From an uncultured Eisenbergiella sp. (GTDB taxonomy: Bacteria; Bacillota; Clostridia; Lachnospirales; Lachnospiraceae): DNA of 58,310 bases. The stretch spans positions 1 through 58,310 of the forward strand of contig CANRGX010000010.1 in the NCBI GenBank assembly GCA_947630215.1, given 5' to 3'. Below, piece after piece: positions 1 to 37,108 of this stretch. Both the position numbers and the translations under genes were made by a program. The notes under the pieces are model-generated. The model had not been told where the DNA came from and did no database searches. It was given only the letters and a program-made list of their open reading frames with translations. Position 1 is the first letter of the stretch. Each line of letters opens with the position of its first letter.

Positions 1-705
<705 letters not shown>

Positions 706-709
<4 letters not shown>

Positions 710-3700
710 GTACATTCAATATGGTTGCATCTATGAATGAAAGTACGGTGGTGTCGGAGTATACACCGGAGAGCAGGCGTTCCGACAGTTATCAGAGTGA
801 GGCAGAACTTGAAAAAGAACTGATCCGTATGCTGACAGAGCAGGGGTATGAATATCTGCAAATTCATTCAGAAGCCGAATTAATAGAAAATCTTAGGAAC
901 AAATTAGAGCAGTTGAATGGCTATGATTTCACAGACAGCGAGTGGGAGAAATTTTTTCGGGAGCATATTGCCAATGCCAATGAGGGTATTGTGGAAAAGA
1001 CACGAACCATTCAGGAGGATTACACGAAAGTTTTAAAGTGCGATGATGGAAGTACGAAGAATATCAGGTTACTTGATAAGGGAAATATACATAACAACCG
1101 ATTGCAGGTAATCAACCAGTATGAAGTGCAGGGAAAAGTAGGAAATGCCGCAAAAGACAGTACTAACCCTGCGAATTATGATAACCGTTATGATGTGACG
1201 ATTCTTGTGAATGGTCTGCCTCTTGTGCATATAGAATTAAAAAGGCGGGGAGTGGCAATCAGGGAGGCCTTTAATCAGATTAACCGTTATCAGCGTGACA
1301 GTTTTTGGAGTGGATGTGGATTATACGAGTATGTACAGATATTCATTATCTCGAATGGCACGAATACGAAATATTATTCCAACACCACAAGGTTTTCCCA
1401 TTTAAAGGAACAGGAGAATAAAACCGGTAAAGGGAAAAAGACAAGCAACAGTTTTGAATTTACCTCATTTTGGGCGGACGCAAATAATAAAGTGATACCT
1501 GATCTTTTGGATTTTACAAAAACCTTTTTGTCCAAACATACGATCCTAAACATTTTGACAAAGTATTGCATATTTACCTCAGAAGAAATGCTCCTTGTTA
1601 TGCGCCCCTATCAGATAGCAGCTACGGAGAAGATATTAAACCGCATAGAAATAGCTACAAATTATAAGAAATTAGGAACACTGGATGCAGGAGGCTATGT
1701 CTGGCATACAACAGGAAGCGGAAAGACATTGACTTCTTTTAAGACAGCGCAGCTCGCGAGCCAACTCGATTTTGTTGACAAAGTGCTGTTTGTGGTGGAT
1801 AGAAAAGACCTTGATTATCAGACAATGAAAGAATATGACCGCTTCCAGAAGGGAGCGGCAAACAGCAACACATCAACCGCAATTTTGCAGCGGCAATTGG
1901 AAAACAAGGACAAGAACAGGAATTACCATGAGTACAAGATAATCATAACCACTATTCAGAAATTAGACGGATTTATCCGCAAAAACAAAGGACATGAAAT
2001 ATTTAACAAGCATGTTGTCCTGATATTTGATGAGTGCCACAGGTCGCAGTTTGGGGATATGCATACGGCGATTATCAAGAACTTTAAGAAATATCATATC
2101 TTTGGGTTTACAGGGACACCGATATTTTCGGTCAATGCGGCAGGAAGTGGCAAGCATGTTGATCTGCGGACGACACCGCAGGCTTTCGGGGAAAAGCTAC
2201 ATACCTATACCATTGTTGATGCAATCAATGACGGAAATGTACTTCCGTTTCGCATCGACTATATTACCACGATTAAGGATAGCGATAGGACGAAGGACAA
2301 GCAGATATCGGCAATAGACACAGAGAAGGCGCTCTTAAATCAGTCACGCATTAGAGAAATTGTTTCTTATATATTAGGACATTTTGATCAAAAGACAAAG
2401 CGTAATGGGGGAGAGAGTTTCACATTCTCTGTACTTGCAAATGTAGAAGAAGTAGCTACGGCAGCAAGTAGCCGGGCAAAGGACAGAAACAAGATAGAGG
2501 AAAAGAAGAATGAAATCCGTATGAGAGGTTTTAACTCCATATTTGCAGTAAGCTCTATAGAGGCGGCTAAATTATATTATACAGAGTTTAAATGCCAGAT
2601 GAAGGATCTGCCAGAGGCAAAAAAACTTCGAGTTGCCACGATATTCAGTTATGGTGTCAATGAGGCGGAAAATGATGATTTTGTAGTTGATGAAAATTCC
2701 GAAAATACAGACGGATTGGATCAAAGTTCGCGGGATTTTCTAGAAAGCGCTATTGATGATTATAATAAGATGTTTTCCACTGCCTACGATACATCAAGCG
2801 AAAAGTTTCAAAACTATTATAAAGATGTATCCCTTAGAATGAAAAACAGAGAGATAGACATTCTGATTGTTGTGAATATGTTTCTTACCGGATTTGATGC
2901 AACAACATTGAATACTCTCTGGGTGGACAAAAATTTGAAATACCACGGACTTTTGCAGGCGTTCTCTCGTACCAATCGTATTCTCAATTCTGTCAAGACA
3001 TTCGGGAACATTGTCTGCTTCCGTAATCTGGAACAGGAGACGAATGATGCAATCGCACTCTTTGGGAATAAAGAAGCGGGCGGCATCGTCCTATTAAAAA
3101 ATTATGCAAGTTATTATAATGGGTATGATGAAAACGGAAAGCACCATGAGGGATATACAGAACTGATTGAAAGGTTGCAGACAATGTTCCCGCTTGAGAA
3201 TTTCTCAGAACTTGGGGAGCAGGACAAGAAGAAATTTATTTCTTTGTATGGTGCGATCTTGAAAATGAGGAATATCTTATCTGCCTTTGATGACTTTGCT
3301 GGGCAGGAGATACTTTCACCGCGAGATTTTCAGGATTATCAGAGTGAGTATATAGATCTTTATCATGAGTTTAAACCGAAAAAGGGAGAAAAAGAAAATA
3401 TCAACGACGATATAGTTTTTGAAATCGAACTTGTCAAGCAGATTGAGGTCAATATTGATTATATTTTGATGCTTGTGAAGAAATACCAGAAGGACGGGAA
3501 TAAAGATAAAGAAATTGTAGTCACGATTGAAAAGGCAGTTAATTCAAGCTTCAACCTGCGGAGTAAAATAGAACTTATCAGAGAATTTCTGTCCAAAGTC
3601 AATGCTGATACCGAGGTTGACAGGGAATGGCTGAGATATGTTGACGAACAGCGGGAACATGACCTTGATGCAATCATAAAAGATGAGAAGCTAAAGGAAA

Positions 3701-3900
3701 AGGAAACACATTTATTTATCGAAAACTCTTTTCGTGACGGAGTATTAAAAACGACAGGTACGGATATTGATGCGATCATGCCGGCAGTATCAAGGTTTGG
3801 TGGCGGCAGTACCGGAAATCGAACTGAAGCTAAGAAAAGGATGATTAATAGATTGATGGTATATTTTGAGAAGTATTTAGATTTGGTGGCAATAAAATAG
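706..3900 (+). CDS. hsdR: Type I restriction enzyme R subunit (nuclease and translocase)
   Basis: ATP-driven DNA translocase and endonuclease of a type I restriction system, 1,064 residues, the usual HsdR size. The N-terminal PD-(D/E)xK nuclease is visible at about 161-182, with Asp163 in RYDVTILVNG and Glu177/Lys179 in HIELKRRG. The superfamily 2 helicase motor follows: Walker A HTTGSGKT (334-341), VVDRKDLD (363-370), DECH box FDECHRSQFG (441-450), then FGFTGTP. The C-terminal third is helical and charged, as expected for the part that docks on the methyltransferase core. The start overlaps the hsdS stop by four bases (ATGA), indicating translational coupling. All motifs look intact, so when hsdS is in frame the system should be active. 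Confidence 0.96.
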
Positions 3901-4030
3901 CATAACAATTAACCAAGCAGATGATGAACGTGCTGAAAAAACTCAAAAGGAACTGAAAGAAAACAGGAAATCTCTGGATAATGTAGGTAGATAAATTGAT
4001 AACAAAAATATTATTAAAAGGATGTTGTAT

Positions 4031-7000
4031 ATGATAGAAGCTATACTTGGAGAGTTAGTTGCTGCAGGTGGAACAGAAATTGTCATTGCAGCAGGAGAAC
4101 ATCTGGCGAAGAAAATAAAACATTGTAAAGATATAAAGAAACTCTTTGCAGATACTGGTGAGTTCTTTATAGATTTCGAACCACAAGCGGAGCAGTTATT
4201 CCAGGATATGTCATTGGTTCTATCAAAAGAGAATATGATTATAATTGCGAATGAATTGAAGACGGATTCTGGTTATACATTTAAGGAACGATTGCTTAAT
4301 TCACTTATTCTTCTGATGGATAAATATGAAATCCCGAGAGAATATGCAATATTTTATGCTAATAGCATTTTATATACCATTCTGAATCAATTACCTGAAG
4401 TTGCACCACAAAAATATGATAGATATTTTCAAAGTGAATGGCGTAAAGAACAGGAAAAAACTTTATCAGAAATAAAGCAAAAAATAGAAAAGGTTAATTG
4501 TGAAATAGCACTTTATAATAGCAAATCAATTTCTATAGAATCGGCAGACCAATTAGATATTAGGATAAGAAAACAAACTAATAATCCTCGTATTGGAATA
4601 GAATTTTTTGATATTGATGATGATAACTTCAAAGAACTATTTGAGGACCAAAAAGTAAATGAGATTGTGCGTGTGCGTGCAAAATGTAGGGAGGAAGCCG
4701 TATACTGCATCATTAACGAATTGTGGAGGAGCAATGAAAAAAGAGCTATTTTTGTAGTGAAAAGCTTAGAAGATTGGGATAAATTGTCTCAGTCTGATTC
4801 TACTGATAATATATATATTCCGTGGTTTTGGGCGGAAGAAATCTGTGCAATAGAGAATAATACAAACATTTTTATATACACAGAAGGAGTTCCGTCCTTT
4901 TCTCATGATGAAATAATACTGAGGCCTAGAACCTTTCGAACTATTAGCAATGCATTAGTTAAAGCGGGTATGGGGATAGAAGAAGCTAACAACCTTGTAA
5001 GCGAAACACATGGACTATATATTCCCATGAAAAGGAAAATCTTTAATGGACAGTACTTGAAAAAGCCAGAATGGGTTGACAGATTATCATGTAACATTAA
5101 GAAGACAGCCTTACTAATAGGACAGTGGACTGACTTGGATGGGGATAAGATTGTTGTTTCCTGCTTGAGTGGTATGGCCTATGATGATTTTGTTGATGCC
5201 ATCATGCCTTTTTCACAAGGCGATGATCCATTTGTTCATGTTGTCAAGAGCAATGGTAATAGAGCATTCTATTTGGCGAGCGTTGAAAATTCGTGGGAAT
5301 ATTTAGATATTGAAAATGAAGATATAATCTGGAAAAAATTTAAAGAATTATTTATTGAAGTATTAAATGAATCTGAAAAATTATTTGTTTATACTACTCA
5401 AGAGCGTATGCTGGCTCAGTTTAAGGGCGAGCATCTGTTTTGGTCTTCAATACTACGAAATGGTATGATACGTAGTTTGATAATGAAGGCTTTTTATAGA
5501 AATGACAGTAAATTTCAAGCATCGCTTGACGCTTTAATGTATCAGTTGTTAGAAAACATACAGACTGAAGAACAGTGGAAGTACATATCAAATTTCTTTG
5601 TGGATTTATGTGAGGTTTCACCTAAAGCGGTAATGGATAGGTTGTTTTTAGAGCTTGAGAAGCCAACAGGATTAATGAGTTTATTTGATTCGCAAACTTC
5701 GGATTTTATTCTGGGTAAGAATTACTATATTAATATTTTATTTGGTGTAGACGAATTCCTTGTTCAAGATGAGTATGCGAGCCGTGGGTTTGAATGGTTA
5801 TTAAAACTTGATGATAAATCATACGATTATAAGAGCAATTCACCTAAAGACTCTATTAGTAAAGTTTTATGTTCTTGGTATAATTTTTCTGCGTTCAAAG
5901 CGGTTGATGAAAAAGTTACGGCAGCTATGAAGGCTTTAGAATTAGATAGGAATGCTTGGGATTATGTGTTTGAAGCACTTCCGACAAATAATAGAAGTGT
6001 ATTTGGTGAGATTCATAAGCCTAAGTATCGTCAACATGTTGATACAGGAGTAGTTGCGGTTCAGGAAATGCTTCAAGTTGTAGAGCAATATGTACTATTA
6101 CTAGTCGAAAAAACTGATTTTATTCCAGATAGATGCGCAAAGCTACTGGGAATAGCGGATAAACTGTCAGAGAAGATATTGAATAAGATTTTTGATACCG
6201 TATTGTACCAAGTTGCTCAAATGTCTGCGTTTGAACAGGCTAATTTAAAAAAGCAAATCAGGCAAATAATCTATAAGCATAGATATTATGCTTCGGCTTC
6301 TTGGGCAATGGGGGAGGAAAAGGTAAAGAAATATGAAGGCCTTTTGAACGAGATTTCTATTTCTGTTCCCGAGTACGAGTATGTGTACCTATTTGAGTCT
6401 GATAGAAATGATATACTGCTTACCCCAATTCCTTATGATCAAGACGGAAGATTTGACGCAAACGACGAAAAAACCCAAGAAATTATAAAGGCAAAGATTG
6501 CAGAGTTTAAAGAAAAAGGATTGGACTTATCAATACTTGCAGAGGCTTGCGCTTCATGCAAGACATCTAATTTGGGCAGATTTCTAGCACTATATGATAA
6601 TGAGGAGATCTTCAATCAGAATACATTTGAAATTCTATATAATGCGCAAGAATGCAAGTCTTTAGCATTAGATTATTGCAAAAGAATGTATGTAAAAGAC
6701 AAAGCTGTCTTTGAAAAAGTAATGGAAAAAAAGGAAGAAATGAAATATGAAGATGGCTTTATTGTTGAAATGTATCGTATACAAGCTTTAGTCGCGGAAG
6801 ATATACCGCTGGTTGACTCTGCTACAGAAAGTATAAAGGCACTTTTTTGGAAAAACGAAATATACTTGAATAAAAACTATGAGTGGGCTTTGAACGAATG
6901 TAAAAAATACGGAACAATTTCTGTGTATGTAGGACTGTTATTCCGGGCTAATATGAAAAATAAGTTTAGCAATGACATTCTGTTTGATTATGTAGTTGAC

Positions 7001-7747
7001 ATTTATAAGATGCCGCATGACGAACAGGTAGGAAATATAGGATATTATATCTCAGAACTGATAGAACCTCTTCAAAAGGAATATGTGCTGATTCCTGAAA
7101 AGGCGCAAAAATTGGTTGAACTTGAGATACATTTCTTTGGCTTGCTTGATTGGAAACAAATGAAGTGTTTTCGGAATGAGATTAGTAGGACACCTGAAGT
7201 ATTTGCAGAAATTGTATCGATAATTTTTAAAAGGGATGATATAGAAAAAAAAGAAGAAAAAACAGATGAACAGAAACAGCTAGTAAGTTTGCTTTATCGT
7301 TTGTATCATATGGCACATTTTTGCCCTGCTGAAAAGAACGGAACAGTTAATTCAAGCGATTTAGACAATTGGCTAAGCGGACTTAAAAACCTTTTAAAAA
7401 AGAATCATCAAGAAAGCTTATTTGGTTTTTTAGTTGGCCGATTATTTGCCTTTTCGCCACAAGGGAAAGACGGTTATCATCCTTGCGAAGCGGTACGCGA
7501 GGCAATTGAGAAATATGCAGATAATAGTATGGCAACAGAATACAGAGTCACTTTATTTAATGAAAGAGGTGTATTTAGTCCAACAGAAGGCAGAGCAGAA
7601 AAGGCTATAGCAGAAAAGCATAAATCGACAGCAGACTATTTCAAGATTAAATATCCCAAGACCGCAGAAATATACTATGAAATGTACCGGCAATATATGG
7701 CTGAGGCTGAGGAAGAAAGGAATAGAGCTGAAAATGGGCATTTCTAG
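4031..7747 (+). CDS. Very large protein with degenerate STAND-like core and helical-repeat C-terminus, partner of the kinase
   Basis: I do not recognise a named family for this 1,238-residue protein. ATG 4031 is preferred over ATG 4022 because AAAAGG lies immediately before 4022, giving proper spacing only to 4031. Residues 1-135 are helical with a Gly/Ala-rich start. About 140-165 is a charged coiled-coil. About 190-450 alternates predicted strands and helices (RAIFVVKS, NIFIYTEGVPSF, LRPRTFRTISNALVKAG, ANNLVSETHGLYIP), recalling the ATPase and winged-helix region of STAND proteins, but no intact Walker A motif is seen where one would be expected. From 450 to the end it is almost all amphipathic helix, TPR- or HEAT-like. 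It follows hsdR by 130 bp and overlaps the kinase gene by 14 bp, suggesting one operon. A role as sensor or scaffold in defence is inference. Confidence 0.6.
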   Translation: MIEAILGELVAAGGTEIVIAAGEHLAKKIKHCKDIKKLFADTGEFFIDFEPQAEQLFQDMSLVLSKENMIIIANELKTDSGYTFKERLLNSLILLMDKYEIPREYAIFYANSILYTILNQLPEVAPQKYDRYFQSEWRKEQEKTLSEIKQKIEKVNCEIALYNSKSISIESADQLDIRIRKQTNNPRIGIEFFDIDDDNFKELFEDQKVNEIVRVRAKCREEAVYCIINELWRSNEKRAIFVVKSLEDWDKLSQSDSTDNIYIPWFWAEEICAIENNTNIFIYTEGVPSFSHDEIILRPRTFRTISNALVKAGMGIEEANNLVSETHGLYIPMKRKIFNGQYLKKPEWVDRLSCNIKKTALLIGQWTDLDGDKIVVSCLSGMAYDDFVDAIMPFSQGDDPFVHVVKSNGNRAFYLASVENSWEYLDIENEDIIWKKFKELFIEVLNESEKLFVYTTQERMLAQFKGEHLFWSSILRNGMIRSLIMKAFYRNDSKFQASLDALMYQLLENIQTEEQWKYISNFFVDLCEVSPKAVMDRLFLELEKPTGLMSLFDSQTSDFILGKNYYINILFGVDEFLVQDEYASRGFEWLLKLDDKSYDYKSNSPKDSISKVLCSWYNFSAFKAVDEKVTAAMKALELDRNAWDYVFEALPTNNRSVFGEIHKPKYRQHVDTGVVAVQEMLQVVEQYVLLLVEKTDFIPDRCAKLLGIADKLSEKILNKIFDTVLYQVAQMSAFEQANLKKQIRQIIYKHRYYASASWAMGEEKVKKYEGLLNEISISVPEYEYVYLFESDRNDILLTPIPYDQDGRFDANDEKTQEIIKAKIAEFKEKGLDLSILAEACASCKTSNLGRFLALYDNEEIFNQNTFEILYNAQECKSLALDYCKRMYVKDKAVFEKVMEKKEEMKYEDGFIVEMYRIQALVAEDIPLVDSATESIKALFWKNEIYLNKNYEWALNECKKYGTISVYVGLLFRANMKNKFSNDILFDYVVDIYKMPHDEQVGNIGYYISELIEPLQKEYVLIPEKAQKLVELEIHFFGLLDWKQMKCFRNEISRTPEVFAEIVSIIFKRDDIEKKEEKTDEQKQLVSLLYRLYHMAHFCPAEKNGTVNSSDLDNWLSGLKNLLKKNHQESLFGFLVGRLFAFSPQGKDGYHPCEAVREAIEKYADNSMATEYRVTLFNERGVFSPTEGRAEKAIAEKHKSTADYFKIKYPKTAEIYYEMYRQYMAEAEEERNRAENGHF

Positions 7748-9166
7748 CGATGTTATGCCCCAAATGGGCAGTAGAATTGAAGGAAAACATGGCATATACG
7801 AGCTTGGCGGTGAGCTTGGACATGGAGGAAATGGTATTGTATTTGATGTTCATATTGTGGACAGGAAAGATGATTTTCTGCGTGAAGGACAAGAAGTAGT
7901 TATCAAGATATTAAAGATTTCACATATTAAGAATATTGAGGAAAGAGAAAAAGACGAGAACGCTTTCAACGAGAAGTCAAAGCTGTTCGAAAAGTTATAG
8001 CTTCTGATCTGGATGTTTTACCTATAATTGATTCTTATATGGATGCTGATGATTACTCATGTGAGTGGTATGTGATGCCTAAAGCAAAAGAGTATAAGTA
8101 CAACAGAAGTGGGGCAGAGCTGGAAAAACTTAAGCAAATGCGTCGGGTGGGAGTTATACTATCAAAATTGCATAAAATTGGAGTGTTTCATCGCGATATA
8201 AAACCTGCAAACATATTGTATTTTAAAAATCGGTGTTTTATCACGGATTTTGGCCTAGTTTGGAATGTCGAAGAAGAACGTCATATTACAGGAGAAAATG
8301 AGGCTTTAGGCCCTATTGGAATACGCCCACCAGAAATGGAAAGCCATGTAGAAAAATTGAACATAGAAATTGATTATCAAAAGGTTGACGTATATTTGTT
8401 TGTAAAAACTATATGGATTATTTTGACAGGAAATCATAATGGTTTTAGAGGAGAATACAACAGATCTGAGCGAATGATTTATTTGGATAAGGATAGGCTT
8501 AACTTGGGTAAATCCATAGAACCATTACATAAAATGATGGAAGCGGCAACTCGATATGACAATATTGAAAGGATAACGATAGATGAGTGCTTGGCTTATA
8601 TTGATCAGCAGATTGCGATAGCGGAAAACGCTATGTCGGATACCATTTTATCTTCACTAATATATGATGAAAGTGCTTCTGAGGTCAAGCATCATATTTC
8701 CTCAGATGTTACACTATTTAAGATGCCAGAAAAGATAACCGTAGCACTATCAAAAATGGTTAATATTGTTGAAGTTGTTGGAGAAGAGTATGGAGCGACT
8801 ATTTCGCTTGGATTATTGAATAGGATAGAGCGTGTAGGTGCAGATTTGTTTAAAATTAGTCTTAAAAATTATGCTCCCTTGGATGGTAGAAAGATTAGAA
8901 GAATTTGCGTTCGAATAACAGAGTTGTCTATCAGCAGTGATAATATAACCGAGATTTTGACAGGAACGATAATAAATAATGATGTCGTAAACCCTGTTGT
9001 GTCTAACCTGGGCGATTACATTATGAGCAAGGACATAGATGTAACGTTGAGTGGCAATTATAGATTTACGCTGAAAAATGCGATTTGCTATAGGGAAATT
9101 GTGTTTATGCCCAATTCAGCATCTTCGGCAACATGGCCTTATCATCAATGTAATAATCGCATGTAA
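7734..9166 (+). pseudogene. Hanks-type Ser/Thr protein kinase, interrupted by a one-base frameshift
   Basis: The ATG at 7734 follows an AGGAAGAAAGG-type ribosome binding site and overlaps the upstream gene by 14 bp. Frame 1 carries the glycine loop (GELGHGGNGIVF) and the VIK lysine segment, then stops at 7998-8000. The rest lies in the -1 frame: EWYVMPKAKEY hinge, catalytic loop HRDIKPANIL, ITDFGL metal motif and an RPPE segment in place of APE. Adding one A to the A5 run at 7948-7952 joins the frames into a natural sequence (EKRRERFQREVKAV, then DLDVLPIIDSY), giving about 477 residues. The last 170 residues form a beta-rich domain of unknown function. All catalytic motifs are intact, so the break is recent, a sequencing error, or a frameshift switch at the homopolymer. 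Confidence 0.8.
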
Positions 9167-9221
9167 TCTTCCTGGAATTGTTGCCATTGACCGCATCAAA
9201 CGGCTGGCTCTGTTCCCGACA

Positions 9222-9377
9222 CTAGGAGACCGCTTTTTCTAGGGTTTCGCCAGCTCGGTAGGTCCAGAGGATGAGTTTGTTGCCGGACTTTTGTTGAGCA
9301 CACAGGTATTCAATTAATGGTCTGTTTGGTTCACCGAGTTCAGGATATTTGCTGAAGCAAATGGTATATAGTTCGCC
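9222..9377 (-). pseudogene. Fragment of a small HAD-like hydrolase common on mobile elements
   Basis: On the minus strand about 50 codons read YPELGEPNRPLIEYLC and GNKLILWTYRAGETLEKAV, then stop. They resemble the central part of the small HAD-like proteins with a conserved (Y)P.(L/I)GEPN and KLILWTCR pattern that phages and conjugative elements often carry. The N-terminal DxD region is absent and the C-terminus is cut off straight after the LEKAV helix. It is a remnant, lying antisense behind the kinase gene. Confidence 0.55.
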
Positions 9378-9502
9378 CTGTGATAACACCATAATAACAA
9401 AAAATCCAAAAACCTCAGATACAAGGCGCATATCCAAGAAAAAAGTGGTGAAAATACTCTTAAAATCACCTGAAAACATAATGATTTCCGGCGCAAAAGT
9501 CC

Positions 9503-9555
9503 GTGAGGGCGGAAGAACGGTTGGATCCGGCAGGGTTGCGACTATCATTGAGTAA
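9503..9555 (+). pseudogene. Remnant of the 3' end of a tuf (elongation factor Tu) gene
   Basis: The codons before the TAA at 9553-9555 read VREGGRTVGSGRVATIIE, the conserved C-terminus of EF-Tu (domain 3). Upstream residues (LLKSPENIMISGAK) only loosely resemble the preceding EF-Tu strand and then the similarity is lost. Only about the last 18 codons are preserved, directly followed by a good terminator. This looks like the 3' end of tuf carried by, or left behind by, an integrating element, not a functional gene. Confidence 0.6.
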
Positions 9556-9589
9556 TCTTTGATAGTGTCTCTAAAAAGCTAGATTTATA

Positions 9590-9620
9590 GGGCTTTCCTA
9601 GGAATAGGGAAGCCCTTTTT
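9590..9620 (+). terminator. Rho-independent terminator behind the tuf remnant
   Basis: GGGCTTTCC (9590-9598) pairs with GGGAAGCCC (9607-9615) with one G-T wobble, followed by five T. It sits 34 bp after the tuf-like stop codon and probably came with that fragment. Confidence 0.85.
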
Positions 9621-9625
9621 GCGTC

Positions 9626-9859
9626 TTGAAAAAAGTGGAAAGAATAGCGAAAAATAAAGTTAGCGGTGCCAAAACGGTGCTAAAAACAAAAACTCCAGCG
9701 AATTTAGAGTGCGTTAGAGAAAATTCTTTGACATATAAGATACATCGTGTTAGTGGTGTGCCGGAAGGTACACACTATGAGATTGGCAAGTATGGACGAA
9801 TGCGGTGGGAGTATTTGAAAAAACACCAAAGAGGGGAATTATCAAGTTGGCTGTATTAA
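9626..9859 (+). pseudogene. TnpV-like transposon protein fragment
   Basis: A 77-codon frame with a TTG first codon. Its second half (EIGKYGRMRWEYLKKHQRG) matches the pattern of TnpV proteins of Tn4451/Tn916-type elements (IG.yGr.r..YLkehr). The usual C-terminal half of about 50 residues is missing because a stop follows SSWLY, and the N-terminal 40 residues look unrelated. It is best read as a truncated relic, with no good ribosome binding site visible. Confidence 0.4.
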
Positions 9860-9890
9860 AGAAATAGCAAATAAATAACAGACAGTTCAC

Positions 9891-9911
9891 AATTCAACTG
9901 GGAGTTGAATT
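9891..9911. promoter_or_regulatory. Perfect 9-bp inverted repeat upstream of the HTH-methyltransferase gene
   Basis: AATTCAACT (9891-9899) and AGTTGAATT (9903-9911) flank GGG. Outer bases TCACA and TTGTGA extend the pairing imperfectly. No T-run follows, so an operator or leader hairpin is more likely than a terminator. It is about 90 bp before the start of a gene encoding an XRE-type repressor domain, so autoregulation is plausible. Confidence 0.45.
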
Positions 9912-9999
9912 GATTTGTGATTTTCACTGGGGAGGTTATTGATTTATAGGGAAACCAATTTTATGATAATAATAGGAAGTGATAGAAGGAGATGGCACA

Positions 10000-10827
10000 A
10001 TGAATCATAATATTGGAGCTTTTATTGCAGCAAAGAGAAAAGAGTTGGGAATCACTCAGCAAAAATTGGCAGAGCAACTGAATGTTTCCTTTCAAGCTGT
10101 TTCAAAGTGGGAAAACGGAACGACAGTACCTGACACACTATTGTTATCACAATTGGCATCTGTGCTTAGAACATCAGTGGATACAATTCTTGGGTATAAA
10201 GCCGCACCAATCACAGAATATGAAAAAAAGTATGAAGGTGAGGATTATTATTGGGGGATTACACCGAATCGCCTATGCTATGAAATCATGAAACTTAAGC
10301 CTCCTGTAAAGCCATACAAGGTATTGGATATCGGTTGTGGAGAAGGAAAAGATGCCGTATTTTTAGCAAAAAATGGGTATATTGTTTCTGCGTTCGATGC
10401 GGCAAAAAAAGGGTTGGATAAAGCAAAGGAATTAGCGCAATTGCATCATGTAGATGTTAATTTTTTTCAAGCCGACATTAATGAATATGAGTTAAGTGAG
10501 GAGTATGATATCATTTTTTCAAGTGGAGTATTTCATTACCTTACACCCAATCGAAGGGAAGATTTTATCCGGAATCTGAAAGAGCATACTGCCATAAATG
10601 GAATACATGCAATCAATGTATTTGTTAAAAAACCATTTATTGAAGTTGCACCCGACAGTGAAGAAACGGAATTAAGAAACGAACCTTGGTATTCCGGAGA
10701 ACTTATGCGATACTACCATGATTGGATGTTCCATAAATACGAAGAAGTGATTTTTGATTGTAACAGTGGCGGAATCCCTCACAAGCATTGCATGAACGGA
10801 ATGGTTGCAGAGAATTTTCACGGATAG
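10000..10827 (+). CDS. XRE helix-turn-helix fused to class I SAM methyltransferase
   Basis: A 275-residue fusion. Residues 4-65 are a Cro/CI-type HTH (GITQQKLAEQLNVSFQAVSKWENGTTVPD, quoted in parts: ITQQKLAEQL and QAVSKWENG). From about 95 a Rossmann methyltransferase starts with motif I VLDIGCGEGKDAVFLAKNG, the TehB/tellurite-resistance style, then ADINEYEL and IIFSSGVFHYL. ATG 10000 is chosen because AGAAGGAG lies 7 bp upstream; an in-frame ATG at 9979 lacks one. The HTH should bind DNA and the enzyme domain should methylate a small molecule or protein; the substrate is unknown. Fusions of this kind are recurrent in Firmicutes and often regulate their own promoter. No partner gene adjoins it. 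Confidence 0.8.
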   Translation: MNHNIGAFIAAKRKELGITQQKLAEQLNVSFQAVSKWENGTTVPDTLLLSQLASVLRTSVDTILGYKAAPITEYEKKYEGEDYYWGITPNRLCYEIMKLKPPVKPYKVLDIGCGEGKDAVFLAKNGYIVSAFDAAKKGLDKAKELAQLHHVDVNFFQADINEYELSEEYDIIFSSGVFHYLTPNRREDFIRNLKEHTAINGIHAINVFVKKPFIEVAPDSEETELRNEPWYSGELMRYYHDWMFHKYEEVIFDCNSGGIPHKHCMNGMVAENFHG

Positions 10828-11223
10828 GAGAAGATGCTATATTATTGTCTGATTATCATGTACGTACACTATATTCTCCCGATTCAAAGATGGAACAGGC
10901 GGAAGCAATTTGTGCCGCAATAGCATCAGGGGTTATAAATGGTTGCTTTACTGAACATATCAATCCGGGAGCCTTTTTGTGCGGCTGACAGCTTTTTAGA
11001 CTGCCTGAGCTTTTATTTTGATTAAAAAATGTTTGACGCAATCGCAAACAATTAAAGTTCTCGAAACCGCAACCATTATGTGTTATACTACAAATTGGAT
11101 AGGTGAGTGTATATGGAAGATGGAAAGGGGTATCCCCTGTGATTATAAATATTCAGGATGACATTCTGAAAATAAAGGCGTTGGGTTTGTTTCAGAAAAT
11201 ATAATGAGATAGAAAGTGAGACA
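10828..11223. other. Intergenic stretch with a promoter and no convincing gene
   Basis: This gap of about 400 bp is AT-rich. A short frame around 10890-10988 (MEQAEAICAAIASGVINGCF) looks coding-like but is too short to assign, and may be gene debris. An extended -10 element TGTTATACT sits at 11081-11089 and probably drives the AlbA_2 gene downstream; no good -35 box is visible. Nothing else stands out. Confidence 0.4.
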
Positions 11224-12714
11224 ATGAAATTGGGAAAAGATTTTGATCTTTCACAATTTAATGAATACAGAGAAGATAATCGCAGAGAAGTAAAAAAAGC
11301 AAGCGCTGGTCTGCCGATTTCTCTTTGGGATACTTATTCTGCCTTTGCTAACTGCTACGGTGGGGTTATTATTCTTGGTGTCAAGGAAGAAAAGGACGGA
11401 AATTGGACAACTACCGGACTGCGGAATGCGTCAAAGCTTCGCAAAGATTTTTGGGACACGATCAACAATCCCAAGAAAGTAAGCATAAACCTGTTATCGG
11501 AAGATGATGTGCAGATATATGAAGTGGGCGATAAGAAAGATGTTATCATGGTAATCTATGTGCCGATGGCAAAGCGGGAGCAAAAGCCCGTATATATCAA
11601 TAATGATATTTTTAATGGTACGTTTCGCCGAAACTATGAAGGTGACTATCATTGTACCAGACTGCAGGTAAAATCAATGCTTCGGGATCAGACGGAGCGC
11701 ACTGTGGACATGGAAGTGCTGGATAAGGTGTCCATGGACGATTTGAACTATGATACGATCCATGGTTATAGAAACAGCCATCGCTCGTTGAAAGAGGGAC
11801 ATCCGTTTGAACGCCTGAGCGATCACGAATATCTGAGAAGTATCGGTGCGGCTGCAATTTCCGAGGAAGACGGGCAACTGCATCCCACAGCGGCAGGCAT
11901 GCTGATGTTTGGAGACGAGTATAATATTGTGCGCCATTTTCCAGAGTATTTTCTGGATTATAGGGAGGAATTAGATCCTACCACTCGCTGGAGCGACAGA
12001 TTGCAGTCCAGTTCCGGTGAGTGGTCTGGAAATGTGTGCGATTTTTATTTCAGAGTCTATAACAAAATTATTAAAGATGTCAAAGTGCCGTTCAAAATGT
12101 CCGGCGGAGAGCGTATTGACGATACTCCGGTACACAAGGCTCTCCGAGAAGCTTTGGCAAACTGTTTGATCCATGCAGATTATCATGGATTGCGCGGTAT
12201 TGTGATCAGAAAAGAAGCAGACAGGCTGATTTTTGCAAATCCCGGCTATATCAGAACCGGCAAAAAGCAGATGCGTCTTGGCGGAGAGTCTGATCCGAGA
12301 AACAAGGCGCTTATGAAGATGTTTAACCTTATCAATATTGGGGAACGGGCCGGAAGTGGTGTGCCGAATATCTTTCATGTGTGGGCGGATGAAGGCTGGG
12401 AGGAGCCGGTCATTGAGGAAAGGTTTGATCCGGATAGGACGGTACTGACGCTTTCTTTTGTGAAAAAACAAGCGATAAAAACAAGCGATAAAAAGCAAGC
12501 GAAAAAAACAAGCGATAAAAAACAAGCGATAAAAACACTGGAGAATATAAAAAAAGTAAGAGATTTTCTTGAACAAAATGGGGAATCAAAGGCAAGCGAT
12601 ATAGCCGAATGTATCGGATTAAGTGTTGTGCGGACAAGAGCGTTACTTAGTGATATGCCAGAAGTTGAGCCAATCGGTGCGAATAGAAACAGGGTATATA
12701 GAATACGTAGGTAG
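11224..12714 (+). CDS. AlbA_2 (Schlafen-type) DNA-binding and HATPase_c_4 domain protein
   Basis: A putative transcriptional regulator, 496 residues. Residues 10-150 form the AlbA_2 domain (EVKKASAGLPISLWDTYSA, NCYGGVIILGVKE). A middle region leads to the GHKL-like HATPase_c_4 fold: REALANCLIHADYHG (about 305-320) and the glycine box NIGERAGSGVPNIF (about 375-388). A Lys-rich repeated linker (about 415-440) then joins a C-terminal winged helix (KASDIAECIGLSVVRTRALL). Family members are annotated as ATP-binding proteins or RecG-like regulators and are frequent beside mobile elements and defence genes. It appears intact and monocistronic. The target is unknown. Confidence 0.8.
   Translation: MKLGKDFDLSQFNEYREDNRREVKKASAGLPISLWDTYSAFANCYGGVIILGVKEEKDGNWTTTGLRNASKLRKDFWDTINNPKKVSINLLSEDDVQIYEVGDKKDVIMVIYVPMAKREQKPVYINNDIFNGTFRRNYEGDYHCTRLQVKSMLRDQTERTVDMEVLDKVSMDDLNYDTIHGYRNSHRSLKEGHPFERLSDHEYLRSIGAAAISEEDGQLHPTAAGMLMFGDEYNIVRHFPEYFLDYREELDPTTRWSDRLQSSSGEWSGNVCDFYFRVYNKIIKDVKVPFKMSGGERIDDTPVHKALREALANCLIHADYHGLRGIVIRKEADRLIFANPGYIRTGKKQMRLGGESDPRNKALMKMFNLINIGERAGSGVPNIFHVWADEGWEEPVIEERFDPDRTVLTLSFVKKQAIKTSDKKQAKKTSDKKQAIKTLENIKKVRDFLEQNGESKASDIAECIGLSVVRTRALLSDMPEVEPIGANRNRVYRIRR
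12466..12536 (+). repeat. Imperfect tandem repeat (AAACAAGCGATAAAA-type) in the linker of the AlbA_2 protein
   Basis: Five copies of a 12-15 bp unit around CAAGCGATAAAA lie head to tail and encode KKQAIKTSD/KKQAKKTSD/KKQAIKT. Copies differ by an A or two in the A-runs, while the reading frame remains open throughout. Such a tract is prone to slippage and could vary linker length or frame. Confidence 0.75.
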
Positions 12715-13085
12715 CCGCTTGGTGGCAAGGTGGTATTATGATAAGGATTGATAGTTGCATATTTTAAGGATAAATTCGACGAGAGATATATGGCGTTTGC
12801 AAGAAAATTTAACTTAGAGCCCAGAGAACTTTTAAGTCATGTTTTGGAAACAGTATTGTTGTATAAGCCAGTGTAAGGCAACATGAAGGATTTGAGGTTG
12901 AAAACCAAAACTTCGCTCAAAAAAATGAGCGAAGTTTTATCAAAAAAGATTATCAAAAGGTCAAGGTAATTATTGATTTTATTGATGAAAATGGGGAAAT
13001 CAGCCTCAAAGAAGCTGACTCAAATTTACACCCACCAGCCCATAAAATGGTTTTATCCAGCAACATATGTTGGGGAGGGACAATT
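12715..13085. other. Intergenic stretch with gene debris and a hairpin
   Basis: At about 12762-12876 a plus-strand frame without a clear start reads KDKFDERYMAFARKFNLEPR and then LLSHVLETVLLYKPV before a stop, coding-like but unassigned. At about 12957-13020 another frame (VIIDFIDENGEISLKEAD) resembles the winged-helix start seen at the C-terminus of the preceding AlbA_2 protein. Both look like remnants. Between them is the hairpin listed separately. Confidence 0.35.
12907..12938. terminator. Bidirectional terminator-like hairpin
   Basis: AAAACTTCGCTC (12907-12918) and GAGCGAAGTTTT (12927-12938) are perfect 12-bp arms around an A-rich loop. The TTTT in the arm gives a short U-tract on both strands. 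It would end transcription of the AlbA_2 gene. Confidence 0.7.
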
Positions 13086-13796
13086 TTGAAGCGTAAGAAA
13101 AAGATGACCATTGCGATCATCATGATCGGAATACTACTTTGCTTTGGCGGAATCTATGTTTTCCTGTTAAGATTCTTTTTTTATAACAAACATAATCTTT
13201 ATGCACAGAGAGCCATGCTGGACAGCCTGAATAAAAAATATAATCAGGAGTTTGAACTGCTGTCCACAGAGTTTGAAACAAAGGAAAAGCTGACAGCGTC
13301 CGCAGGATATGTTCATATCTGGACCTTTTTGCTTCAGGACAGGCAAGGAAGGCAGTTTCATGCGTATGTACGTTTATATGGTCTGGTTGAAAAAGGCGAT
13401 GGGAACTTTCATGAACCGGATTATTCCAGCTATATAGATGATACCTATGGGCAGCTTTGCATAGAGGAGCGGTTAGACAGTCAATTTGACTTGTATCAAT
13501 ACAGGCAGGAAAAGGGAAACAGACCGGAAGACGCAAGGTGGGAGGACTACATATTTATTTGCTCAGAAAATAATGCAGCTGAAATAGCGGAGCTGTTGAC
13601 CAAAATCTATTTTACGGAACCGGAGTTTGGCAATGGCGGCTGTTTGAAATGTCTGGTAAAGAAAGAAGGGGGAGAACCGCTGTTTTCCTATTATTGGTGG
13701 GATATTACGAGAGCGCTGCAAAAACAGGAAAAAGAAATAACAGAACAAACGGTATATGCGTACCTTTTGCAGGAATTGGGAAAGTCCCCTTTCTGA
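13086..13796 (+). CDS. Membrane-anchored protein of unknown function
   Basis: I do not recognise this 236-residue protein. TTG 13086 is proposed as start because GGGGAGGGA lies 4-11 bp before it; ATG 13104 would be the alternative and loses only the basic lead. A Lys/Arg-rich lead precedes one hydrophobic helix (IAIIMIGILLCFGGIYVFLL) that either anchors the protein or acts as a signal peptide. The remainder is soluble and probably extracytoplasmic, rich in aromatic residues, with two nearby Cys (GGCLKC). It stands alone between the AlbA_2 and Nudix genes. Its codon use matches the AT-rich island. Confidence 0.65.
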   Translation: MKRKKKMTIAIIMIGILLCFGGIYVFLLRFFFYNKHNLYAQRAMLDSLNKKYNQEFELLSTEFETKEKLTASAGYVHIWTFLLQDRQGRQFHAYVRLYGLVEKGDGNFHEPDYSSYIDDTYGQLCIEERLDSQFDLYQYRQEKGNRPEDARWEDYIFICSENNAAEIAELLTKIYFTEPEFGNGGCLKCLVKKEGGEPLFSYYWWDITRALQKQEKEITEQTVYAYLLQELGKSPF

Positions 13797-13863
13797 ATTG
13801 TGGGTCTGGTCGAAGCCATGCCCGATTTGATATGCGTCCTGATAGGTATGGTTGATTTTTTAA

Positions 13864-14517
13864 TTTTCCGAAAAGGGATGGTGGAACAAATTTAAATTTG
13901 ATTTACTGGAGGTCATGATGAGCAATACAGAATGGGTCATGCCAACTCATATCATTGCGGCAGCGGGTATCGTGATGAATGATAATGATGATATCCTGCT
14001 GGTAAAAACATATCGCGGAGGGTGGGAATTTCCAGGAGGGCAGGTCGAAGTCGGGGAAAACGTGATCGACGCTGTTAAAAGAGAAGTTATGGAAGAAACA
14101 GGCATTGATATTGAGGTTGGAGAAGTGTTTTGCATATCATCGAACACTTGTAAATATCCCGGGTATAACGGGGTCAAAGAAGTGCCCACCAAGATTATGC
14201 TCGATTTTATTTGCAGGGCGAAAGATGGCATACCGCGTCCTTCAAATGAAAACTCTGAGTCAGCTTTCTTTTCAATAGACAAGGCTCAAGAGTTAATCAC
14301 TACTCCTGCCATCGTTGAAAGATTCAAGGCATATCTGGAATATGCAGGCAGACCGACTTACTTGGAATATGTTACAAAACCAAATTTTCAGCTGAAGCTG
14401 AAAAGAACCATTTGAATTCCCGTTTGTCGAACGAACAGTATTTATCATCACAACTAAATGGCAACACAGGTTTCTTTTCAGAATGGCAGCTAGTAGAGAC
14501 ACTTTTCCGAAAAGGGA
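13864..14517 (+). repeat. 15-bp direct repeat flanking the Nudix gene
   Basis: TTTTCCGAAAAGGGA occurs exactly at 13864-13878 and again at 14503-14517, bracketing the Nudix gene with almost nothing else between. The unit contains a short palindrome (CTTTTCCGAAAAG at the right copy). It might mark the ends of a small inserted cassette or be a pair of regulatory sites. Confidence 0.6.
13915..14415 (+). CDS. Nudix hydrolase
   Basis: Hydrolyses a nucleoside diphosphate linked to another group; the exact substrate cannot be read from sequence. The Nudix box is complete: GGQVEVGENVIDAVKREVMEETGI, given in parts as GGQVEVGE, then REVMEETGI, which fits G-x5-E-x7-REUxEExGU at about residues 42-64. The total length of about 166 residues is normal. 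GGAGG precedes ATG 13915, and a second ATG at 13918 is equally possible. A C-terminal extension of about 25 residues follows the fold. It is monocistronic. Confidence 0.88.
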   Translation: MMSNTEWVMPTHIIAAAGIVMNDNDDILLVKTYRGGWEFPGGQVEVGENVIDAVKREVMEETGIDIEVGEVFCISSNTCKYPGYNGVKEVPTKIMLDFICRAKDGIPRPSNENSESAFFSIDKAQELITTPAIVERFKAYLEYAGRPTYLEYVTKPNFQLKLKRTI

Positions 14518-14594
14518 CTTGGGAAAATGCGTCTGTATAAAATAGGCGTGCGTGAAGCGAATTTTATAAATACGGATCCTTTAGGAAAACTGTC

Positions 14595-14632
14595 AAGGCC
14601 GGGAGTTGAAAAAGCTCCCGGCCTTGGCTTTC
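14595..14632 (+). terminator. Rho-independent terminator at the island boundary
   Basis: AAGGCCGGGAG (14595-14605) pairs perfectly with CTCCCGGCCTT (14615-14625), loop TTGAAAAAG, followed by a T-rich stretch. The remaining gap between the Nudix stop and 14777 (about 360 bp) shows only this hairpin and the right copy of the 15-bp repeat. Base composition becomes GC-rich from here on. Confidence 0.8.
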
Positions 14633-14776
14633 TATCCTGCAGGCGTCTTTTTCCTTTCTTCGGGATTGCTAAAATGGAAGAAATATTGTACCATATTTCT
14701 GTAGGCAATTTTGCGAATTGCTTTAGAAGAAGTGAGGAAAGGGTACGGTTTCGATACCGGAGAAAAAGGGGATAGA

Positions 14777-16702
14777 ATGAATAGAAAGAAGCTGCTTTGT
14801 CTGGCGCTGGCCTGTCTTTGTATGTGCGGCTGCGCTTCCCGGAAAACGGAACCGGCGGACGGGGATCAAATCGTCGTTACCATGTTGTATCCCAGCGATC
14901 TGCCCAGCCTGGAAAATCTGGTGGAAACCACTTATCCCGATATCGATCTGCAGATCGAAAAAAACGCGGCCGGGACAATCGACGGTGAAATGGAGCGCCG
15001 TCTGCGCAACGGGCACGGCAGCGATATTGTCACGTCCACCCTCGCGGCGGGCGATGTGCTCAACTATCTTGCGGACTTGAGTGCGGACGAGTATATTGCG
15101 GCATACCAGTCCGGCATGATGCGCAAGATCGCCAAAGACGGGAAAAATCTTTTTATTCCTCTGCCGGCGCAGTATTACGGGTATATCTATAACGTTACGC
15201 TTGCACAGGAAAACGGCCTTTTAGTGCCCACAACCCAGGACGAGCTGATGGAAATGCTTGAAAAGGCGAAAAAGGCGCGGATCGGGACGGATGAAAAAGG
15301 GTCTGTTTTTGTCGTAAACGGCACGCCCGCTACCACGGCCACCTTTGTCATCGCCACGCAGATCCCGGATTTCTTCGGGCTTTCCGAGGGCATCCGATGG
15401 CTGGACGATCTGAAAAACGGGAAGGCCGCTTTCGCCGGCGCCCTGGACTCCTGTCTGGATCTGCCCCTGGAAATGATAGAAAAGGAATATCTGGATCCGT
15501 TTCCTTTTACCTCCGTTTCCAATTCGGCTCCCATTCTCCAAAAAATGAGCAGCGGGGAAATGCTGGTGGCGTTTGATAACGTTACCATGCTGGATCGGAT
15601 CCGGAAGAACAGCGAGTATGAATTTGATATGCTGCCGATGCTCAGCAAAGAAGGAAATCCTGCATGGACGGTTTCCGCGCCTACGGCTTTTCTGGGGATC
15701 AACAAAGCGCTGACCGGAGAGGGCGAGGAAGCCCGGCTGGATGCCTGCCGGAGAATCCTGGGTCTTTTGTCCACGCCCGAGGGCCAGGACGCCTTTATGA
15801 TGGATAACGGGGCGGCCTATTCGTATCTGGTGGACTATACGCCTGATTCGGACATTGTGCCCGGCGGAATCAAGGCCTGTATGGAAGAAGGTTTTAACTA
15901 TAACATTTCGATTTCCAACGATTTCATGCGCTATTTCGGCAACCGCTGCAATGCCGTGCTCTGCGGGCAGAAGGATATCGCGTCCGCGCTTGCGGAGGTG
16001 GATGGATATATGCAGGGCGGCGACAGTCAGACCGCCACGCTGATCGGGACGATCAACCAGGACATGCTGGTAGAGAAGTATAATGTGCGTCTGGGTGAAA
16101 CGGAGATTGGAAATCTGATTTCGGACGCGGTCAGGGAGATAACCGGCGCGGATATTGCCGTGGTAAACGGAGGCTCTATCCGGGGAAGTCTCTATAAGGG
16201 CGATCTTTACAGCTACGATCTGGACTATGTCTGTCCCTATCAGGATACGATCATCATTCTCGAGGTGAATGCGGACGTCATTAGGCAGATGCTTTCCAAC
16301 AGCCTGTCAACCATGCTGCGCGATGTCGAGATACCGGGAGGAAGGTTCCTCAATGTTTCGGGGCTGAAGTATTCCTTCACCCTACCCACCCAGGACGCTC
16401 CGGCGCAGCTTGTTGACGTGACGCTCCCGGACGGATCGCCGCTGGAGGAAAACGCCGTCTATACGCTTGCTGTAACGGATTACATGGCGGGCGCCAGCGG
16501 GTACTTCGACAATAACGGCGACGGCTTTACCATGCTCAATGTTTACAGCAGCGATGTGCCCAAGGCCGAAAACGTGAAGCTCGTCCGGGAAACGGAAGAT
16601 ACGTTCCAAAGCATTTTGAAAGAATACATTATCAAGCATAATACGGAAGAAATCGCATCGCAGATTGAGGGAAGGATCACATCGGTGGAGAAAGATGAGT
16701 GA
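14777..16702 (+). CDS. Lipoprotein fusing an ABC-type solute-binding fold to a 5'-nucleotidase C-terminal domain
   Basis: An extracytoplasmic lipoprotein of 641 residues. The signal peptide ends in a lipobox, with Cys19 in CMCGCAS. Residues about 25-410 look like a family 1 solute-binding protein (IVVTMLYPSDLPSLENLV, FIPLPAQYYGYIYNVTLA, AFLGINKALTGEGEEA). From about 417 the sequence switches to a 5'-nucleotidase C-terminal domain (IGTINQDMLVEKYNVRLGET, GNLISDAVREITGADIAVVN, NGGSIRGSL, YTLAVTDYMAGASGY). The metallophosphatase catalytic domain that normally precedes it is absent, so nucleotidase activity is unlikely; nucleoside binding is possible. ATG 14777 has a G-rich leader (AAAAAGGGGATAG). 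The stop overlaps the hybrid kinase by 8 bp, which suggests it is the sensory partner of that kinase. Confidence 0.8.
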   Translation: MNRKKLLCLALACLCMCGCASRKTEPADGDQIVVTMLYPSDLPSLENLVETTYPDIDLQIEKNAAGTIDGEMERRLRNGHGSDIVTSTLAAGDVLNYLADLSADEYIAAYQSGMMRKIAKDGKNLFIPLPAQYYGYIYNVTLAQENGLLVPTTQDELMEMLEKAKKARIGTDEKGSVFVVNGTPATTATFVIATQIPDFFGLSEGIRWLDDLKNGKAAFAGALDSCLDLPLEMIEKEYLDPFPFTSVSNSAPILQKMSSGEMLVAFDNVTMLDRIRKNSEYEFDMLPMLSKEGNPAWTVSAPTAFLGINKALTGEGEEARLDACRRILGLLSTPEGQDAFMMDNGAAYSYLVDYTPDSDIVPGGIKACMEEGFNYNISISNDFMRYFGNRCNAVLCGQKDIASALAEVDGYMQGGDSQTATLIGTINQDMLVEKYNVRLGETEIGNLISDAVREITGADIAVVNGGSIRGSLYKGDLYSYDLDYVCPYQDTIIILEVNADVIRQMLSNSLSTMLRDVEIPGGRFLNVSGLKYSFTLPTQDAPAQLVDVTLPDGSPLEENAVYTLAVTDYMAGASGYFDNNGDGFTMLNVYSSDVPKAENVKLVRETEDTFQSILKEYIIKHNTEEIASQIEGRITSVEKDE

Positions 16703-34904: not shown

Positions 34905-35397
34905 CATCTGTGCTTGTACGGGCGCGTTTTGCGGGGGATGGGCAATTGACATGTTTTTAGGATATGAAAGCCGGATACATGGCGATATTGACGTTTGCGC
35001 CTATTGGAATGAACGTGATAGGATTATTCGGTTCATGCAGTCGCAAGGATTTTATGTTTATGAAATGCTCGGTGGCGGCAGGGCACATCGAGTCGTCGAC
35101 CTATCCAATCAGATGAGGACAAAGCGCAATATTTTCTGCTTCAAAAAAGGATGTCCATTGGTTAAGCTTTATCCTCACGATGAAAATGACTGCTGCTGGA
35201 TTGAGTTTTTTCACACTGGGCAAACCGAGTTTGACTTTATTGAATTTCTTTTCAATGACAGGTCGGAAACTCAGTTTGAATATGCCCGCGACAGGGAAAT
35301 AAAGCGTGATTTTGACAAAGCGGTTCTTACTGTGGATGGGATACCCCGTCTCGCCCCTGAGATTTGTCTTCTGTATAAGTCAACCGAAGTTGGATAG
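34905..35397 (+). pseudogene. Remnant of an aminoglycoside-type nucleotidyltransferase
   Basis: The frame, with no valid start, reads FCGGWAIDMFLGYESRIHGD then IDVCAYWNERDRIIRFM, the nucleotidyltransferase core (GGWAID...G..R.HGDID) with both metal-binding acids. It ends prematurely at LLYKSTEVG, where intact relatives continue for about 40 residues. Both ends are therefore lost: the N-terminus merges into the reductase 3' flank, and the C-terminus stops early. The AT-rich composition differs from the reductase gene before it. It marks the left edge of a decayed accessory patch. Confidence 0.7.
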
Positions 35398-35607
35398 TGC
35401 GGAGGGGTGACAAACAAATACAAATCAAAAAGGGACTTCCTCAATCCTTAAAAGGCTATGACAGAAACGGTTATAGTCTTTTTTCATACGGTTATTACCG
35501 TAGAAAATGAAAACGTATTCCCCAGAGCAGAGGAATACCCACCCACAACATTCATATCAATCAATATTTATACATCTAACTTTGGATGTAGCACAGGGAG
35601 GGAAAAG

Positions 35608-36306: not shown

Positions 36307-36370
36307 GAATTTCACGAAAATCCGGTTTTTAAAAGAGAATGTACGATGTATAATAAAAGGGAGAAAACAG

Positions 36371-36898: not shown

Positions 36899-36910
36899 TT
36901 ACCCTCTGAT

Positions 36911-36958
36911 TTTCCCTTGTTTTTGCCCTTACGGGCCAAAAACAGGGGAAAGTTTTTT
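36911..36958 (+). terminator. Strong Rho-independent terminator
   Basis: TTTCCCTTGTTTTTGCCC (36911-36928) pairs with GGGCCAAAAACAGGGGAAA (36933-36951), with one bulged C and one G-T wobble, followed by GTTTTTT. It isolates the Rpn remnant from the next operon. Confidence 0.88.
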
Positions 36959-37055
36959 AGTGGATAAAAGCGCCCGGTATTTGAGAGTATTTGAGAGCGA
37001 AATACACCCTTCGCACAAAGCGGTATGTTTGTGTACTGACCAAAAGAAAAATATA

Positions 37056-37108
37056 TTGACAAGAAAACTTGGCAGCGTTATAATGAGGATACGCCAAGAA
37101 AACTTGGC
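37056..37108 (+). promoter_or_regulatory. Consensus promoter with two palindromic operators
   Basis: TTGACA (37056-37061), 17-bp spacer, TATAAT (37079-37084): a fully consensus promoter. CAAGAAAACTTG (37060-37071) overlaps the -35 and spacer. GCCAAGAAAACTTGGC (37093-37108), a perfect palindrome, lies just past the start site. Their centres are 35 bp apart. The second gene of the operon encodes an XRE repressor, the obvious candidate to bind both. Confidence 0.85.

Follow-up and report, generated by a model that had tools for sequence, protein, structure and literature searches.

Does the pair of overlapping genes that follows a type I restriction gene in an uncultured Eisenbergiella sp. form a defence system against phages? 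The pair lies in a stretch of 58,310 bases, hereafter the window, which is one complete contig of a 2.57-Mb genome assembled in 79 contigs, and it encodes a large protein followed by a Ser/Thr protein kinase. An earlier sequence-only reading had proposed an undescribed defence module made of a sensor and a kinase. Of this proposal a two-gene cassette in a restriction-rich setting stood, whereas the kinase gene appears to be broken here and is not the partner of the large protein family-wide. By sequence comparison the gene pair is real, selected and mobile, and it likely has a role in defence. Tentatively, and with slightly less than even confidence, we read it as a mobile anti-phage cassette whose two genes follow a sensor-plus-effector plan, and in which a swapped effector end would couple the sensor to the kinase.

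The large gene and the kinase gene move as a cassette

The large protein has its closest homologue at locus L003 of Lachnospiraceae bacterium NK4A144, where the pair is intact and the large protein is 85% identical. Comparison of the whole window with L003 (18 kb) by blastn at E 1e-5 gave a single match, 83.6% identical, between positions 4018..9078 of the window (+ strand) and 5537-10601 of L003; it begins 13 bases ahead of the conserved start of the large protein and ends in the final codons of the kinase. The flanks differ: hsdR lies upstream in the window, whereas an AlbA_2-like gene lies upstream in L003, where a transposase-like open reading frame (ORF) follows the cassette (both by reading). 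Because DNA similarity is confined to the two genes and almost nothing else, the pair moves as a cassette. The ratio of nonsynonymous to synonymous substitution (dN/dS; Nei-Gojobori script) between window and L003 was 0.102 for the large protein, and the two kinase pieces, scored apart, gave 0.203 and 0.233; these values, together with the 85% identity, show that both genes were under purifying selection. No published description of such a pair was recognised in the open literature, subscription journals and preprints lying outside the scope.

The large gene (4031..7747, + strand) is intact. Its ORF spans 4022-7747 (1241 residues), and the ATG at 4031, with AAGGA 8 bases ahead, is conserved in L003, giving the 1,238 residues originally read. 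The kinase starts at 7734, so that the two genes overlap by 14 bp as had been described, and this overlap is present in both copies. Three parts can be distinguished in the large protein, all on the + strand: a helical N-terminal domain (4031..4522), recognised by sequence matches to L003 and to a DSR2-like protein at locus L058, with helices taken from a low-confidence model; a STAND-like region without Walker A (residues ~190-360; 4592..5101), assigned via the family profile; and a conserved C-terminal module of ~880 residues (5102..7744), defined by alignment, which we infer to be mostly helical. The protein had no significant match in Pfam, NCBIfam, PADLOC or PDB (best PDB E 0.76), and a PDB search with the family profile gave a best E of 0.13.

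The kinase gene is frameshifted in the window

The kinase gene (7734..9166, + strand) is split over two frames. The first, 7734-8000, carries the glycine-rich loop and the VIK lysine, and the second, 7943-9166, the HRDIKPAN catalytic loop, DFG and the tail. The reading frame changes between 7934 and 8000 (+ strand), in the region of helix alphaC. A single ORF with all catalytic motifs was thus not found, and an intact window kinase was rejected. Either a mutation or an assembly error may have caused the frameshift; unless it is an assembly error, it probably leaves the pair inactive or half-active in this genome. The last residues of the window kinase are unrelated read-through, because DNA similarity to the L003 kinase ends at 9078.

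The intact homologue, the L003 kinase (P0003, 453 residues; Pfam protein kinase, E 1.3e-17), matched the PADLOC families PD-T4-6 (7.6e-18), MAD6 (8.6e-17), MkoA (3.9e-13) and Stk2 (3.1e-12), the matches falling largely within the kinase domain; the best PD-T4-6 match (62.5 bits) covered residues 23-401, and mad6 scored 59.2 bits. The second kinase piece of the window scored 27.7 bits against NCBIfam MAD6 (cut-off 460) and 13.5 bits against PglW (E 0.01, cut-off 990). The likeness to PD-T4-6, Stk2, MAD6 and MkoA consists of a Ser/Thr kinase domain, to which the matches are mostly limited, but the L003 and window kinases differ in being tied to a large partner gene. Genes for PglW, PglZ, BrxC or PglX were absent from the four neighbours scanned by Pfam, PADLOC and NCBIfam, the rest of the contig lying outside the scan. 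An identity with BREX, PGL or Avs was not favoured by any library scan made.

At 1e-12 the kinase was matched in 3 of 397 genomes from the family, its own included; the other two matches are longer kinases with other C-termini. Two loci from other genomes of the family, L044 (7069-9396) and L045 (3229-5418), encode kinases of 775 and 729 residues that on reading have a long C-terminal part in common. Kinase relatives also occurred in 10 plasmid records at E 1e-8, six of which were inspected (L029-L034): L029 ends at the record edge, near a CBASS cyclase gene, and the L031 record carries no annotation.

The pair could consist of two independent neighbouring defence genes on one mobile piece, the kinase acting alone like Stk2 or PD-T4-6 and the large protein alone like its kinase-less relatives, a reading that we consider unlikely. 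It would account for the resemblance of the kinase to PADLOC defence kinases and for the four annotated plasmid loci (L030, L032, L033, L034) that have no large gene beside the kinase, although an HNH endonuclease gene directly precedes the L030 kinase, a dsDNA-nuclease-domain gene lies on the opposite side of the L032 kinase, and a 936-bp hypothetical gene overlaps the L034 kinase. It accords less well with the overlap retained in both copies and with the confinement of similarity to the two genes. In addition, a search with only the last 153 residues of the kinase gave no PADLOC match at E 0.01 and none among plasmids at E 1. A part shaped for one partner would be expected to behave in this way, although a PD-T4-6 model extends as far as residue 401.

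N-termini are exchanged over a shared C-terminal module

Searches recovered relatives of the large protein from 8 of 397 genomes sampled from the family and from 7 of 398 sampled from the phylum, both counts including the own genome. Plasmids (16 of 72,556 records) and phages (1 of 50,697 records) contributed others; the distribution is patchy. Scans of viral contigs with the kinase and with the L046, window and L021 proteins yielded no relative. All counts out of 15 given here refer to the window and the relatives whose surroundings were read, aligned as 15 rows. Left out were G261:C26 and G429 (fragments) and G309 (a 74-residue match) from the family search, G628 (a fragment at a contig end) and G543 (locus L043, an outgroup with Walker A present) from the phylum search, and 12 of the 16 plasmid records, H1, H5, H7 and H9 being used.

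The C-terminal module (812-902 residues) is common to all 15 rows, at ~20% identity to the window protein. It had originally been read as a long helical-repeat C-terminus; what was recovered is a long shared module, probably mostly helical, that could be a sensor. The N-termini, by contrast, fall into classes. Eight rows (L012, L013, L017, L039, L040, L041, L042, L046) share a GxDG...WExG...K domain, preceded by a helix-turn-helix (HTH) in three (L012 and L013 by Pfam, L042 by reading). Three others (L019, L020, L021) carry an AlbA_2/Schlafen N-terminus, called by Pfam for L021 only (E 1e-10) and by alignment and reading for L019 and L020. The window and L003 share the helical domain, and no class was given to L014 and L015. 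The GxDG-type domain looks like a PD-(D/E)xK nuclease; it had no match in Pfam and a best E of 0.81 in a PDB search, so that the term nuclease, used as putative throughout, is based on its three invariant residues, D, E and K, and on the PD-(D/E)xK motif.

On a tree of the C-terminal module the AlbA_2 rows had a single origin (100/100) and the window and L003 formed a long branch of their own; deeper forks were weak, and L017 and L046 attached by long branches. The four N-terminus labels required 4 changes on this tree, compared with a shuffled mean of 6.6, a value as low being reached in 1/200. On this tree any of the N-terminus types could be the ancestral one. As judged from these alignments, N-termini are exchanged between relatives over one shared C-terminus.

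The STAND-like centre lacks Walker A in the whole family

A STAND-like region was present by alignment in 10 of the 15 rows. At the position of the P-loop these rows read like AxxxxDEA rather than GxxGxGKT, and none of the ten has Walker A there. No Walker A pattern occurred anywhere in 14 of the 15 rows, and the match in L017, at residue 80, falls inside the GxDG-type domain. Since the P-loop is missing from all ten STAND-like rows, the lost Walker A characterises the family and does not reflect decay in this genome; a degenerate STAND-like middle had been read correctly.

An hhalign comparison of a nine-row profile (the ten STAND-like rows except L003) with L049 and L043 gave a probability of 97.6 and an E of 2.9e-12 over 717 columns. 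L049 is PD-Lambda-4_A by PADLOC (E 0, genome G631), and the alignment places its P-loop opposite the AxxxxDEA stretch. The PADLOC model for PD-Lambda-4_A also matched L040 (1.2e-4), L039 (0.0087) and the L042 protein (2.5e-6, in the genome search). The family of the large protein is thus distantly related to this described defence protein, so that the large protein does have some known kin. The two are colinear in having an N-terminal domain, STAND and a long C-terminal region, but L049 keeps the Walker A GLSGVGKT that the window protein lacks, has another N-terminus, and showed no kinase in its stretch. The window protein itself did not match the PADLOC model for PD-Lambda-4_A (PDLC03991) up to E 10. 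PD-Lambda-4_B was absent among the 25 kinase-matching PADLOC families listed of 33 and of 32, no search having been aimed at component B. A review table places PD-lambda-4 under P-loop NTPases (PMC10952713), and the discovery paper is PMC9519451.

By description, the large protein also resembles the inactive STAND (iSTAND) domains of MoxR-vWA ternary systems and of BREX BrxB/PglW, which are STAND-like without Walker motifs and which, in the parts of the literature consulted, are proposed as invader sensors in other systems (PMC7159879, PMC8195603, PMC12839542). It differs in that iSTAND domains are accompanied by MoxR and vWA or by BREX genes, none of which was found by Pfam among the four window neighbours. 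The plan of an effector, a STAND domain and a repeat sensor is that of Avs, and is common to Avs and the large protein, but the latter has neither an Avs match in PADLOC nor Walker A. The pair is probably a variant of an effector-STAND-repeat defence protein that lost its P-loop, bears a different N-terminal domain and added a kinase.

Restriction genes lie near some relatives and a kinase near few

The read stretches around the relatives vary from 6.6 to 19 kb, the window apart. Type I restriction-modification (RM) genes lay within them in 6 of the 15 rows, a raw count not set against random genes: the window, L019 (28 bp after hsdR), L021 (20 bp after hsdS), L040, L046 (an hsdM fragment) and L042 (hsdM ~7.7 kb off, by tblastn only). 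Eight rows (L003, L012, L013, L014, L015, L017, L020, L041) showed no type I match. L039 is flanked by a SNF2 helicase and a DNA methylase, and an hsdM-like match of 121 residues was seen there as well; its stretch 3946-16569 forms a cluster of the GxDG-type relative with the helicase, the methylase and a large unassigned ORF. As annotated, L012 adjoins AbiE genes and L015 adjoins Abi and superinfection-exclusion genes.

That the pair has nothing to do with defence, and is a sensor-kinase pair with a regulatory or housekeeping task that came to lie in the island by drift, appears improbable. Phage protection and the trigger of the pair are read from analogy, and L013, L014 and L017 have no recognised defence gene in their read stretches, both of which would fit such an origin; the RM, methylase, helicase, AbiE and Abi/superinfection-exclusion genes just described, the patchy occurrence in family and phylum genomes, and the profile link to PD-Lambda-4_A run against it.

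Searches by tblastn of three kinases against 20 neighbourhoods recovered only the kinase of L003 itself and one in L019. No kinase was found near the large-protein relative in 12 of the 15 rows, which would also be expected if the two genes were independent, and kinase pairing as a family trait was rejected. The survey of homologues for kinase linkage that the sequence-only reading had envisaged thus yielded pairing in the window and L003, and in L019 a different kinase, which is fused to AbiJ_NTD3 and encoded 0.7 kb downstream, past an insertion-sequence-like ORF. Homologues scattered without the kinase had been named in that reading as a refuting result, and this result was partly obtained. 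At L019 (3885-6362) this fusion is followed by an AbiJ_NTD4 protein, downstream of the type I RM genes and the AlbA_2-type relative.

The helical N-terminal domain also occurs on a DSR2-like protein

Residues 1-193 of the window protein matched a 1,174-residue protein of genome G261, at L058 (E 3.4e-6, residues 41-149). In the reverse search the L058 domain scored 28 bits against the window protein and 32-33 bits against L003, whereas 200 shuffles of the L058 domain peaked at 14.7 bits over all 2,126 ORFs, with a maximum of 7.3 bits for the window protein. The body of the L058 protein (1834-5157 of G261:C37) matched positions 306-1220 of the 1222 of the PADLOC Dsr2 model (E 6.9e-82); as the remainder matches Dsr2, the helical domain occupies the place of SIR2 in DSR2. 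The likeness to DSR2, a SIR2-type tail-tube sensor, is this fusion of a window-type domain to a DSR2-like body, but the bodies of the L058 and window proteins were unrelated by BLASTP (best E 0.20), and Dsr2 had no match in the window protein in PADLOC up to E 10. A short ORF ahead of the L058 gene looks, on reading, like an hsdS end or remnant.

The domain is rare. It had no match in plasmid or phage searches, and at E 0.01 it matched 8 of 299 family genomes, of which its own and G261 were used and six weak ones were left out (G067, G163, G267, G243, G035 and G210; E 3e-4 to 0.009). The least surely fortuitous of these, in G067, scored 19.6 bits, compared with the maximum of 14.7 for the shuffled L058 domain, and spans 56 residues of an unrelated-looking 336-residue protein. 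Among 241 genomes of the order only the own genome and one chance match were found. A match in G991 was on reading DNA polymerase I. No second copy occurred in the L058 and L003 genomes beyond a match at E 0.28.

The L058 protein has no kinase within its 14 kb (elsewhere in G261 there is a single, weaker kinase match at E 3.8e-5), so that the helical domain may not need a kinase. This bears on the possibility that the helical domain does the killing, for instance as a helical bundle acting on membranes, and that the kinase is a switch releasing it by phosphorylation, much like RIPK3 acting on MLKL in animals. We regard this alternative as rather unlikely. The domain stands at the position of catalytic effectors in two unrelated bodies (nuclease-like or AlbA_2 in the large-protein family, SIR2 in the DSR2-like protein), its first 30 residues are rich in Gly and Ala (10, 10 and 9 of 30), and its start is moderately hydrophobic (best 19-residue Kyte-Doolittle mean 1.2-1.5); but a stretch at residue 677 of the window protein is equally hydrophobic (1.55), and the only three sequences found of the domain show no homology to a known pore former. 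More generally, and likewise doubtfully, the helical domain might be a portable cell-death or adaptor module that replaces catalytic effectors on two unrelated phage-sensor bodies, the Walker-less STAND/helical protein and the DSR2-like protein, and that is kinase-gated here, by a logic like that of kinase-triggered helical-bundle death proteins.

A sensor with an exchangeable end may signal through the kinase

In the anti-phage cassette reading, the C-terminal module and the P-loop-less STAND-like core would form the constant sensor part, familiar from relatives that start with an AlbA_2/Schlafen domain or a putative nuclease; in this branch a helical domain of ~160 residues takes their place and would couple the sensor to the separately encoded kinase. 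The large protein would recognise a phage product and, because Walker A is missing, would change conformation without NTP hydrolysis; the helical domain would then bring together or release the kinase, and phosphorylation would arrest the cell or block the phage. The large protein is thus viewed, by analogy, as a sensor with an exchangeable N-terminal end, to which binding, activation, targets and phage protection are ascribed on the same ground.

Several observations weigh against this account. The pair was seen in two genomes only, and a window-type kinase stands beside the large gene in only these 2 of the 15 rows; G429 and G261:C26, which come next in similarity (39-40% identical, fragmented), likewise show no kinase in the read stretch, and the L058 protein carries the same domain with none nearby. 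The type I RM count, as noted, is a raw one. The STAND assignment of the window protein comes via the family only: aligned alone, the window and L003 proteins gave E 0.098 and probability 0.6 against PD-Lambda-4_A in hhalign, and the PADLOC model for it matched none of 5 of the 7 relatives scanned. Finally, AlphaFold models of residues 1-481 of the large protein and of the intact L003 kinase had mean pLDDT of 38.5 and 29.4 and gave no structural support; as both predictions are of low confidence, helical content and STAND fold rest on sequence.

Should the account hold, the known phage sensors would gain a family in which STAND architecture is kept and the NTP switch lost, and effector ends, one of them possibly working together with a kinase, would be swapped between unrelated sensors. 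The account raises the questions whether a STAND-type sensor can respond in the absence of ATP and whether it passes its signal on to a kinase.

Genomic setting of the cassette

Upstream of the cassette lie, on the + strand, the 3' part of hsdS (1..709, by Pfam) and hsdR (706..3900), which encodes a type I restriction subunit of 1064 residues by Pfam, PADLOC and NCBIfam and ends 130 bp upstream of the large-protein start. The pair had been placed right after hsdR in an AT-rich island, and the GC content is indeed 0.33-0.37 over 4-9 kb, compared with 0.50-0.62 beyond 15 kb except for a dip at 35-38 kb. This second AT-rich dip (35001-38000) has a GC content of 0.42-0.44 in surroundings otherwise above 0.50. 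The hsdS part begins, exactly at the contig end, within an ACAG tandem repeat, (ACAG)19, of 19.2 copies at 1-77; by itself this repeat suggests that hsdS might be phase-variable. The window holds neither the remainder of hsdS nor hsdM.

Pfam identifies the four neighbours scanned as hsdS, hsdR, an HTH-methyltransferase and an AlbA_2 protein. Past the cassette end, 9079-9978 holds one small ORF only and gives the impression of mobile-element remnants. It is followed by an HTH_3 domain fused to a TehB-like methyltransferase (9979-10827) and by an AlbA_2/Schlafen protein with HATPase_c_4 (11224-12714), in which a 13-14-bp tandem repeat (12463-12537) lies inside a KKQA-rich stretch.

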